The notes beneath the pieces were generated by a model. It searched no databases, was not told where the DNA came from, and worked only from the letters and a program-made list of their open reading frames with translations. From Gammaproteobacteria bacterium (GTDB lineage: Bacteria; Pseudomonadota; Gammaproteobacteria; SZUA-152), in contig JAOUJW010000001.1 of the NCBI GenBank assembly GCA_029882975.1, forward strand, positions 186,001 through 250,000: a DNA stretch of 64,000 bases, given 5' to 3'. Of the stretch, positions 18,836 to 23,800 are shown one piece after another. Each line of letters starts with the position of its first letter. The first letter of the stretch is position 1. Made by a program: the position numbers and the translations under genes.

Positions 18836-19014
18836 TCCATTTCCTGCGGTTTTACTGCGGTATATTGGTTAGTTATAATATTGCATAATAATTAAGAATG
18901 CTTTACCCTTTGACCCACTAAGGCACTCGGTTAATTGCTGAGAATCGATAGCCATGCCGAATGCAGATAAAACGATTGATTATAATGACATTTTGATGTC
19001 ACAAGGAAAAGACT

Positions 19015-19107
19015 ATGAACCCACTTGATTCTATTTTAGGTACTATTATTTCCGGTTTTGTACTCACTGTCATTCTGGCTTTTGTTGCCAAAGCGATTGG
19101 CGCGTAA
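19015..19107 (+). CDS. 30-residue single-span membrane microprotein
   Basis: A short frame reads MNPLDSILGTIISGFVLTVI and continues LAFVAKAIGA before TAA. It is preceded by a good ribosome site (AAGGA, 8 bases upstream) and encodes one predicted transmembrane helix with a short polar N-terminus. It ends 51 bases before the PuuD-like membrane gene on the same strand, so it is probably part of that transcript and could be a subunit or regulator of it. I know no named family. Confidence 0.6.
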   Translation: MNPLDSILGTIISGFVLTVILAFVAKAIGA

Positions 19108-19158
19108 TACGGCCTAAACAACTACCCATCAACACCAACAAATTAAAAAGGTAATATC

Positions 19159-19647
19159 ATGGAGTACTTAATATTTTTCGAACGCTGGGTGCACTTTATG
19201 GCAGGTATTTTGTGGATTGGCCTGTTGTACTACTTTAACTTTGTACAGGTACCGGCAATGGCAACCGCCGCCGCAGACAAAGACGGCCCCGGTCCTGCCG
19301 CTATTGGCAAATATATCGCCCCCAAAGCCTTGTTATGGTTTCGCTGGGCCGCAGTCGTTACCTGGATCGCCGGCGCCGGCTTGCTCGGCCCCAATCTTGG
19401 TAAAGCCTTCCTGCTGCAAACGGGCTTCGTGAATATTGGTATTGGCGCTTGGTTGGGTACCATTATGTTATTCAACGTATGGGTTTTGATCTGGCCCAAC
19501 CAGAAAAAAGTGCTGGGAATGGTTCAAGCCAGCGACGAAGAGAAAAACAAGGCGAAAAGAGTGGCCTTGTTGGCGTCGCGAACCAACACCATGTTGTCTA
19601 TCCCGCTGCTATTCTTCATGGCCGCACAATCTCACGGGGTATTCTAA
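19159..19647 (+). CDS. PuuD-like (urate hydroxylase N-terminal family) membrane protein
   Basis: The 162-residue protein has about four membrane helices and the motifs FFERWVHFMAGILWIGLLYY, WRWAAVVTW-like FRWAAVVTWIAG and LFNVWVLIWPNQKK of the Urate_ox_N/PuuD family. His and Trp residues in the first helix could hold a haem, as suggested for the family. It lacks the cytochrome c domain found in full PuuD enzymes, so urate oxidation is not established. No purine-degradation genes are nearby. It has an upstream microprotein on the same strand and is followed by a hairpin region. Confidence 0.78.
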   Translation: MEYLIFFERWVHFMAGILWIGLLYYFNFVQVPAMATAAADKDGPGPAAIGKYIAPKALLWFRWAAVVTWIAGAGLLGPNLGKAFLLQTGFVNIGIGAWLGTIMLFNVWVLIWPNQKKVLGMVQASDEEKNKAKRVALLASRTNTMLSIPLLFFMAAQSHGVF

Positions 19648-19662
19648 CACCGCTTCTTCATC

Positions 19663-19784
19663 TATAATAAGCTGTCTGACGACAGCTGGAGGCATTGCCA
19701 ATTCAGGCAACAGCCTTTACCATAGCGATTTAGTGCAATGGCAGCCTCTCATGGGGCTGCCATTTTGTTTTTGGGATAGAACTT
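19663..19784 (+). promoter_or_regulatory. argD leader with three hairpins (attenuator or small RNA candidate)
   Basis: A TATAAT-like hexamer at 19663-19668 is followed by a perfect 7-bp hairpin (AGCTGTC-TGAC-GACAGCT, 19670-19687), a second hairpin (TTGCC-AATTCA-GGCAA with flanking GGC/GCC) and the terminator at 19738-19772, only 12 bases before the argD ATG. A transcript from this region would have to read through the terminator to express argD, or else end there as a roughly 100-base RNA. No good -35 box is visible. Confidence 0.45.
19738..19772 (+). terminator. Intrinsic terminator directly upstream of argD
   Basis: A 9-bp stem ATGGCAGCC / GGCTGCCAT with an 8-base loop is followed by TTTGTTTTT. 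The argD ribosome site (GGGATAG) starts right after the T-tract. It may simply end the PuuD-like transcript, but its place makes attenuation possible. Confidence 0.8.
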
Positions 19785-20960
19785 ATGGGTGACACATTAA
19801 TGCACACATACGCCCGGCAGCCGGTTAGCTTCAGCAAAGGCAAAGGCGCTTGGCTCTGGGATGATACGGGAAAACCATACCTGGATGCGCTTTGTGGTAT
19901 TGCCGTAACGGGTTTGGGTCACGCCCATCCGGCGGTAACAACCGCCTTGTGCGAGCAGGCCTCACAGCTGTTACACACGTCCAATCTGTTTGAAATTCCA
20001 CATCAACGGTCATTAGGTGAGGCCCTCACGCGCCTGAGTGGAATGGATAAGGCATTCTTTTGCAATTCCGGAGCAGAAGCCAACGAAGCCGCCATTAAAA
20101 TTGCGCGTTTACACGGCAAGAGCAAGGGCGTGAAGTCTCCGGCTATTATCGTGATGGAAAACAGTTTTCACGGTCGTACCCTGGCCACATTGAGCGCCAC
20201 GGGTAATCGCAAAGTTCAAGCGGGGTTTGAGCCGCTGGTGCAAGGTTTTGTTCGTGTCCCTTATAATGACCTTGAAGCCGTGCGAACTATTGCAGAGAAC
20301 AACCAGAATGTTGTAGCCGTATTGGTGGAGCCCATCCAAGGTGAAAGTGGTATTAACATACCCGATGCCGATTATCTGAACAGCCTCCGAGCCATCTGCG
20401 ATGAACATCAGTGGTTACTTATGTTAGATGAAATCCAATCGGGCATGGGCCGCTCCGGAAAATGGTTTTGTTTTCAGCACAGCAACATCACTCCGGACGT
20501 GATGACCTTAGCCAAAAGTCTGGGGAACGGAATGCCTATTGGCGCATGTTTGGCTCGCGGCACCGCTTCGGACCTACTCCAACCCGGTAGTCACGGTACC
20601 ACGTTTGGGGGCAACCCCCTGGCTTGTCGTGCAGCCCTAGCGGTTATCCAAGCCATGGAGCAGGATAACTTGGTACAGAATGCTGAAATCATGGGCAACA
20701 AAATTCTGTCTTTATTGGCTCAGGGTCTAAAAGACAATCCCCAAGTAGAAGACATTCGCGGGCAAGGCTTGCTACTGGCGGTACAGTTAAAAACCAATTG
20801 TTCGCAACTGGTGAAGCAAGGATTGGATAACGGCATTGTACTCAACGTCACGAAAGACAAAATCGTGCGCCTGCTCCCTCCTTTAATTATCAATGACAGC
20901 GAAGCGGAACAAATTGCGGAAAAAGTCTGCCATTTAGTACACAATTTCCAGGCAGTTTGA
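19785..20960 (+). CDS. argD: Acetylornithine aminotransferase
   Basis: A class III PLP aminotransferase of 391 residues that converts N-acetylglutamate semialdehyde to N-acetylornithine in arginine synthesis. The start ([20 protein letters not shown]), [31 protein letters not shown], the PLP-contacting [15 protein letters not shown] and the Schiff-base Lys in [14 protein letters not shown] are all visible. Some relatives also act on succinylornithine or diaminopimelate intermediates. It is followed 17 bases later by argF. Confidence 0.95.
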
Positions 20961-20977
20961 AGTATAGGACTAAGGCT

Positions 20978-21877
20978 ATGCAAGTGCGTCATTTTTTAAC
21001 CTTGAGAGACTTGAGCTCCGATGAATTCCGCCGGCTGATTCAGCGAGCCATCGAACTCAAAACCATGCAGCACGACGGAAAGATTTATCAACCGTTTCAA
21101 GGCAAAGTTTTGGGCATGGTGTTTGAAAAATCATCCACTCGAACCCGCGTCTCTTTTGAAGCTGGAATGGCTCAATTTGGAGGCCACGCCCTGTTCCTCT
21201 CACCCAGAGACACTCAATTGGGCAGGGGCGAACCTATAGAGGATACGGCGCGGGTTTTGTCCCGTATGGTGGATATCATTATGATTCGCACCTTTGAACA
21301 CGAAAAGCTGGAACGGTTTGCTCAATTTTCGAAGGTACCGATTATTAATGCCCTAACCGATATGTATCACCCCTGCCAACTATTGGCGGACATGCAGACT
21401 TATTTTGAGCATCGGGGTGATATCAAGGGGAAAACCGTCGCCTGGGTTGGTGACGGCAATAACATGTGCCACTCCTATATAAATGCCGCACATATCCTGG
21501 AATTTCAATTGAACATTGCAACCCCGCAGGGATACGAACCGAATGCTCAATTGCTGGCATCCACGCAGGCCAAACTGGTACTGAGCAACGATCCGGCCAC
21601 TGCCATAAAAAATGCCGACTTGGTGGTAACTGACGTGTGGTCCAGCATGGGCCAGGAGGAGGAACAAGCGCAGCGGGAACAGGCATTCAAAAACTACTGT
21701 GTCACAACACAGTTGATGCAACTGGCCAATCCAGATGCTTTGTTTATGCATTGCCTACCCGCACACAGAGACGAAGAGGTCACTGCAGACGTTTTGGAGG
21801 GCCCGCAAAGCGTCATATGGGATGAGGCAGAAAACCGTTTGCATTCACAAAAAGCCTTACTGGAGTTCCTCCTGTAA
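20978..21877 (+). CDS. argF: Ornithine carbamoyltransferase
   Basis: Joins ornithine and carbamoyl phosphate to make citrulline. The carbamoyl-phosphate motif STRTR ([11 protein letters not shown]), the ornithine-side motifs [14 protein letters not shown] and [13 protein letters not shown], and [11 protein letters not shown] are present. The frame extends to a TTG at 20957, but the ATG at 20978 follows a clear AGGACTAAGG ribosome site and gives the normal family start ([13 protein letters not shown]). It forms an operon with argD. Confidence 0.96.
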
Positions 21878-23146: not shown

Positions 23147-23800
23147 TTACATCCCGGACAAAAACTCGGCGACATTCTCGATGTCGTTCTTAGACAGCTT
23201 CTTGGCAATATCACCCATCATACCGGCAGGATCGTTCTTACGGGTACCGGTTTTGAAATTATTCAATTGCTTAATGATATAAGCTTTCTGCTGGCCACCG
23301 ATGATGGGAAATAATGAATTGGCTTTGCTTTTACCCTTGCCATTTTTACCATGGCAGTTGACGCAACCGTACACGCCCGCCTTGGGATTGCCTTTTTCAA
23401 ACAAATTCTTGCCTGCGCTGGATTTTTTGGAGTTACCGCTTTTCCCCGACATGATTTTTTGTGAGGAAAAATAAACTGCAATATCTTTTAAATCGTCCAG
23501 ACTGGTTACCGTCGCGGCCATAGCGCTCATGGTATCGTCATGACGATTACCCAATTGAAAATCTTGTACTTGCTTGAAAATGTATCCTGCGTACTGCCCG
23601 GCAAGATTGGGATAAGTAGTGGGATCTATACTGATTCCATCAACCCCATGACAACCGTGACACAATTCCGACTTGGTTTTGCCGGCTTTGGCATTACCTT
23701 CGCCTGGTTTCATTCCACCGGCGATTGGTTGACTGATAGCTCCTCCCGAGAACACCAACAGTGACAGCACTGTCGCAATCATACTGATTCTTTTTATCAT
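23147..23800 (-). CDS. Dihaem cytochrome c4-type protein
   Basis: A signal peptide (about 24 residues) precedes two class I cytochrome c domains. Haem motifs are C47HGC50H51 and C146VNC149H150; axial Met candidates lie in MSAMAATVT and PAGMMGDIAKKL. The two-domain layout and length fit cytochrome c4, a periplasmic electron carrier that commonly feeds terminal oxidases. It is monocistronic and divergent from the YgiM-like gene. Confidence 0.9.
   Translation of the reverse strand: MIKRISMIATVLSLLVFSGGAISQPIAGGMKPGEGNAKAGKTKSELCHGCHGVDGISIDPTTYPNLAGQYAGYIFKQVQDFQLGNRHDDTMSAMAATVTSLDDLKDIAVYFSSQKIMSGKSGNSKKSSAGKNLFEKGNPKAGVYGCVNCHGKNGKGKSKANSLFPIIGGQQKAYIIKQLNNFKTGTRKNDPAGMMGDIAKKLSKNDIENVAEFLSGM

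Follow-up and report, generated by a model that had tools for sequence, protein, structure and literature searches.

A 30-residue membrane microprotein encoded ahead of a PuuD-like gene is most likely a detached helix of its partner

Introduction

CydX and similar one-helix oxidase subunits consist of about 30 residues forming one helix and are encoded beside the gene of a larger membrane protein. The 30-residue peptide described here resembles them in size, single helix and placement, and Pfam and NCBIfam searches with it returned no matching model.

Judged from the accessible part of PMC3128077, the closest parallel is subunit IIa of the B-type (ba3) cytochrome oxidases, which works alike but differs in partner and in sequence. 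Subunit IIa is one short helix that is encoded directly upstream of its partner and is sometimes missed in annotation, and it is thought to stand for a helix built into other relatives (PMC3128077, accessible part). The separate and built-in helices of those oxidases have no sequence similarity according to the same part of that source, whereas in the short DUF989 family they are plainly alike. Subunit IIa has the motif Pro-Xaa-Gly-Thr (PMC3128077, accessible part), where the peptide described here reads Ile-Leu-Gly-Thr. Its gene adjoins those of oxidase subunits II and I, in contrast to the neighbours found here, which are hydantoinase B, PuuD-like, argD and argF genes.

The larger partner belongs to a family known from the urate oxidase PuuD, a full-length, eight-helix DUF989 domain followed by a C-terminal cytochrome c with a CXXCH motif. 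Shorter DUF989 proteins have been described as differing from PuuD in gene context and as having four helices, which correspond to its helices I, II, V and VI (PMC4562309, accessible part). In that part of the source, the short proteins (partial matches to PF06181) appear with no mention of a helix encoded separately upstream, fused to the N-terminus or placed at the C-terminus.

Here we analyse a micro-ORF within a stretch of 64,000 nucleotides from a gammaproteobacterium (contig JAOUJW010000001.1, positions 186,001 to 250,000), referred to below as the window. No description of this micro-ORF was found in the open-licence literature, supplements aside. With a probability of about 0.85, we read its product as helix 0 of short DUF989 proteins, encoded by a separate gene and assembling with a four-helix core into a five-helix unit.

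Results

A micro-ORF precedes a short DUF989 gene

Features of the locus are listed in Table 1. The micro-ORF starts with an ATG at 19015, stops with a TAA at 19105–19107 and encodes MNPLDSILGTIISGFVLTVILAFVAKAIGA. The preliminary description had claimed a short frame with a good ribosome site, and this reading holds, as the 30 codons are preceded by AAGGA 7 nt before the ATG. It had also placed the frame 51 bases ahead of a PuuD-like gene lacking the cytochrome domain; the distance from stop to ATG is indeed 51 bases, and the downstream product has no cysteine and therefore no CXXCH cytochrome c motif.

Table 1. Positions of the micro-ORF, its partner gene and associated features in the window
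Feature	Coordinates	Strand	Basis or remarks
Shine-Dalgarno core AAGGA of the micro-ORF	19003..19007	+	Read from sequence; 7 nt before ATG
Micro-ORF, 30 aa, one transmembrane helix, probably helix 0 of the short DUF989 family	19015..19107	+	ORF reading, conservation, selection
51-base gap between micro-ORF and PuuD-like gene	19108..19158	+	
PuuD-like short DUF989 (Urate_ox_N) protein, 162 aa, no cytochrome c	19159..19647	+	Pfam match; four core helices expected from the model of a fused homologue
Terminator-like hairpin (19737-19764) with T-rich tail, between the pair and argD	19737..19774	+	12 pairs

The 162-residue product matches the Pfam model Urate_ox_N (PF06181) in two stretches at 73.2 bits (cut-off 26.9, E = 3.1e-20). 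Its core helices are homologous to those of PuuD, but it has neither the eight-helix DUF989 domain nor the C-terminal cytochrome c of that enzyme. Four core helices without a C-terminal cytochrome, the pattern of the short proteins, describe it well, the helices being taken from the model of a fused homologue and not of the window protein itself.

Upstream of the pair lies a divergent hydantoinase B gene, and argD and argF follow downstream (19785–21877). Among the loci of 80 relatives, argD-like genes were found in 47, argF-like genes in 43 and argG-like genes in 22. An operon with the arginine genes was considered and rejected, as the terminator-like hairpin parts the pair from argD in the window; the arginine genes are read as neighbourhood, not as function. 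Two terminator-like sites were found in the stretch, against 1.2 expected from shuffles. A two-haem c-type cytochrome-like gene, with sub-cut-off matches to the PdsA and ccoP models, lies on the minus strand at 23147–23800, about 3.5 kb from the pair and with no sign of linkage to it.

The helix is conserved as a separate peptide or an N-terminal fusion

The window's genome was compared with those of 56 relatives, and 22 of the 57 contain a PuuD-like protein, some of the matches being fragments. With a profile built from four peptides, 13 of these genomes gave a match. In 12 of them it falls either immediately ahead of the PuuD-like gene or at its beginning; the thirteenth match (G032, E = 0.036) is weak and lies elsewhere. 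In one relative (L016) the motif is found within the PuuD-like ORF itself. The alignments define a motif, M(K)NPLxS..GT...G, contained in one short helix and present in the 30-residue peptide, which is also placed directly ahead of a short DUF989 gene as expected for a member of the helix-0 family.

A larger set comprised the best 80 of at least 591 matches, which leans towards the window protein and comes mostly from Beta- and Gammaproteobacteria. The peptide profile matches all 80 of these best-scoring loci, at 16.1–61.3 bits. In 43 loci of this selection the helix has an upstream micro-ORF to itself, and in the other 37 it is joined in frame to the PuuD-like protein at the N-terminus. The separate ORFs of the 43 split loci have 25–47 codons (median 31) and end at a distance of -1 to 82 bases (median 13) from the next gene, and in the fused proteins 37–49 residues lie between the motif and the conserved histidine of core helix I. 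For one annotated split record (L189) the gene table, itself incomplete, lists no gene for the peptide.

In a wider search, 87 of 398 genomes matched, and 30 loci were taken for the best of these 87. An N-terminal in-frame extension with a hydrophobic stretch is present in 27 of the 30, and 22 of these 27 score above 5 bits with the profile; the other three, the window among them, have a separate peptide. Conservation of the frame upstream of homologues had been named beforehand as the test of the claim, and the claim withstood it.

Selection acts on the peptide sequence

Purifying selection was assessed over 23 aligned codons in 48 separate peptides, with L042, which has a diverged motif without NPL, left out. 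In 101 pairs of 70–98% identity the median pN/pS was 0.18, and pN was below pS in 100 of the 101 as well as in 16 of 17 independent pairs. Variation is lowest at codon position 2 (0.08) and highest at position 3 (0.54). Purifying selection acts on the separate peptide.

These data bear on the possibility that the micro-ORF is a leader peptide or regulatory uORF, its translation controlling the PuuD-like gene while its product is irrelevant as a protein. A short ORF just upstream, at the small distances found in the 43 split loci, would allow translational coupling. Selection, however, acts on the amino acids of the peptide, and in 37 of the 80 loci (best 80 of at least 591) this sequence is built into the mature protein, which makes a leader improbable. 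The preliminary description had proposed an overlooked single-span partner of the PuuD-like protein, and conservation, protein-level selection and in-frame fusions now support this strongly. The reading of the peptide as one of the partner's own helices, now detached, goes beyond that proposal and is the most likely.

A third arrangement places the helix at the C-terminus

In a divergent clade of short DUF989 proteins, 58–75 extra C-terminal residues form one additional helix followed by a last helix. When ten of the last helices were aligned and compared, profile against profile, with the separate peptides, they matched with 96.3% probability (E = 1.9e-9), as against 0.3% for the extra helix that precedes them. 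The clearest case is L147, whose last helix reads PLTTIPGVIASGVLLT. The match is weak in single sequences of the clade, such as L185 and L153. Six of the ten last helices outscore all 500 composition-kept shuffles, and the number of shuffles scoring as high was 1 for L167, 2 for L018, 18 for L153 and 295 for L185.

The PuuD core is proposed to begin and end outside the membrane (PMC4562309, accessible part). If the termini of the short core are placed likewise, a C-terminal helix needs one extra crossing to take the orientation that it has in the N-terminal form, and one extra helix is what is seen. One C-fused member (L138 / L019, G026) is broken by an in-frame TGA, and its reading runs on in frame to the C-terminal helix.

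Helix 0 accompanies nearly every short DUF989 gene in an evenly drawn sample

A fairer figure than that of the 80-locus set was obtained from 185 genomes drawn evenly from the class. PF06181 was found in 73 of them; 11 matches were full-length PuuD and 68 loci were short DUF989, of which L156 and L188 were set aside as fragments to leave 66 assessable. As many as 65 of the 66 carry the helix: separate in 25, N-fused in 29 and C-terminal in 11, while one has nothing. The 29 N-fused loci consist of 26 with the motif and three, judged by position only, whose fused helix is too diverged for the profile. For four loci (L015, L123, L150 and L172) a script output of 'none' was overruled by hand in favour of an N-terminal fusion, on position alone for the last three, and L138 was counted as C-fused despite its TGA. 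Full-length PuuD differs in this respect also, as a profile scan of the whole locus found helix 0 in none of the 11 (best match 4.7 bits), with only 186 bases of upstream sequence for L112.

A tree of 151 cores implies at least nine switches between split and fused forms, at least four of them forced by the starred branches; the tree was built by a quick method, has long branches and cannot tell gain from loss, and the count of nine omits rows labelled 'none', the label that C-fused loci bear on it. Switching between separate and fused forms has thus been repeated, and the helix, which also has the third, C-terminal arrangement, is nearly exclusively linked to short DUF989.

Some cores lack the helix. 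In genus g3, which belongs to the window's own family, L011 and L012 keep a full-length short DUF989 gene without helix 0 upstream, and a profile search of genomes G003 and G013 of this genus found no helix elsewhere either. L190 also is without the helix. Two further g3 loci (L020 and L021) are short DUF989 fragments without helix 0 upstream, and the g3 core sits on a long branch. In another relative (L008, G019) the short DUF989 gene is interrupted by a TGA and the micro-ORF is absent too; the two are possibly decaying together.

If the helix were an assembly factor or a chaperone, released once the protein is finished, a core retained without it, as in at least one genus (L011, L012), might be expected. 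Barring proteolysis, however, the helix cannot leave in the N-fused and C-fused forms, and we regard a chaperone role as no more probable than a leader.

In a reverse search with the peptide profile, 51 of the 185 genomes gave a total of 52 matches. Of these, 50 adjoin or fall within a short DUF989 gene; the remaining two, in G190 (E = 0.002) and G137 (E = 0.006), are weak. A small hydrophobic toxin, or a free-standing membrane peptide that merely adjoins the PuuD-like gene, would not be expected to keep such company, and fused forms are frequent. Of five separate peptides scanned, two did give very weak hits, under the cut-off, to the model of the Fst type I toxin (E = 0.023 and 0.074), and a toxin appears very improbable.

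Start sites were compared with 8937 control ATGs, 671 of which are preceded by a Shine-Dalgarno core. Such a core was found before 38 of 44 separate peptides and before 32 of 36 fused ORFs; in the 43 split loci, 24 of the second starts, those of the DUF989 core, have one as well. These second starts lie in frame 0, 1 or 2 in 16, 20 and 7 cases, and with starts spread over all three frames the split is not a sequencing slip. A single fused ORF, split artificially by a sequencing error or a wrong start, is the least credible reading for the window, where the two ORFs do share a frame and fused relatives do exist but two in-frame TAA codons (the micro-ORF's own and one more) intervene, and it is refuted for the family as a whole by these frames and by the second starts having their own Shine-Dalgarno cores.

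A model of a fused homologue suggests a five-helix unit

From an alignment of 55 sequences, AlphaFold2 models the fused homologue L040 with a pLDDT of 94.9 and a pTM of 0.88. The helices of this model span residues 7–24 (the helix in question), 32–67, 75–106, 122–149 and 157–190. No PDB sequence matched the DUF989 profile at E ≤ 10, and a Foldseek search with the core gave no match at E ≤ 0.001. In a second structure comparison the core scored Z 12.1 with cytochrome b6 and Z 10.9 with b561, but designed bundles reached 13.2 and Z values below about 13 are common for helical bundles, so that the resemblance is only at the level of a helical bundle. Core helix I contains one invariant histidine.

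For the separate helix 0 we propose the following course. The micro-ORF product would be synthesised immediately before the four-helix PuuD-like core, and it would insert with its N-terminus in the cytosol and its C-terminus outside. It would then pack on the core through its conserved NPLxS / GTxxxG face, and the two chains would assemble in trans in the membrane as a five-helix unit of which the peptide is a permanent subunit; many relatives use one chain. Many separate peptides have a lysine or arginine near the C-terminal end, which fits the proposed orientation poorly.

Discussion

These results introduce a family of microproteins for which Pfam and NCBIfam have no model. It accompanies short DUF989 proteins in Beta- and Gammaproteobacteria, and also on at least one plasmid of an alphaproteobacterium. 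A fifth helix that is often encoded by another gene may explain why short DUF989 proteins were described, in the accessible part of PMC4562309, as four-helix proteins. A short DUF989 protein expressed from a split genome without its micro-ORF may be an incomplete complex. The natural separate, N-fused and C-fused versions offer a ready test of how well a membrane protein tolerates the loss or relocation of the covalent link to one of its helices.

A redox role for the unit is the likeliest, though it is no more than hinted at by homology to PuuD, the invariant histidine of core helix I, sodB neighbours in some loci and the PQQ-like operon of one clade. A literature search found no tested function for short DUF989 proteins. 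The idea that they stand in for a missing protoporphyrinogen oxidase was rejected: 49 of the 57 genomes, the window's included, have HemJ (PF03653).

A second PQQ-like operon with the order pqqA-pqqD-pqqE-[helix 0]-DUF989-serC was observed at five loci: L189 (NZ_CP029178.1), L190 (NZ_CP073765.1), L221, L222 and L223. All five contain a PqqA-like peptide ending in RLGFEVTAYVYVR, and four have a separate helix, which is absent from L190. The serC-like aminotransferase is annotated in the two plasmid records (L189 and L190), where a dihydroorotate-oxidase-like gene comes next, and was read by eye in the other three. The parts of these plasmid records that the analysis covered carry no annotated pqqB or pqqC. 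The genomes of L221–L223 also hold PqqB and further strong PqqE matches (one each in G142 and G184, two in G155), so the operon looks like a second, parallel pathway; it is a candidate peptide-derived cofactor pathway.

A bolder synthesis would be that a single helix of a membrane redox enzyme has been encoded in three places (as a gene of its own, at the N-terminus, and at the C-terminus together with an extra helix that compensates), with its position and orientation in the membrane kept, the enzyme being a cytochrome-free relative of PuuD that in one clade serves the second PQQ-like peptide pathway (pqqA-pqqD-pqqE-[helix]-DUF989-serC). Taken as a whole, we consider this unlikely at present.

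A superoxide dismutase gene, recognised by a sodB-like motif only, lies near short DUF989 in several unrelated families. It was observed within about 1.5 kb in 6 of the 30 loci of the wider, phylum set and within 6 kb in 4 of the 80 loci (best 80 of at least 591); examples are L195, L196, L205, L207, L208 and L213, and L052, L089 and L096.
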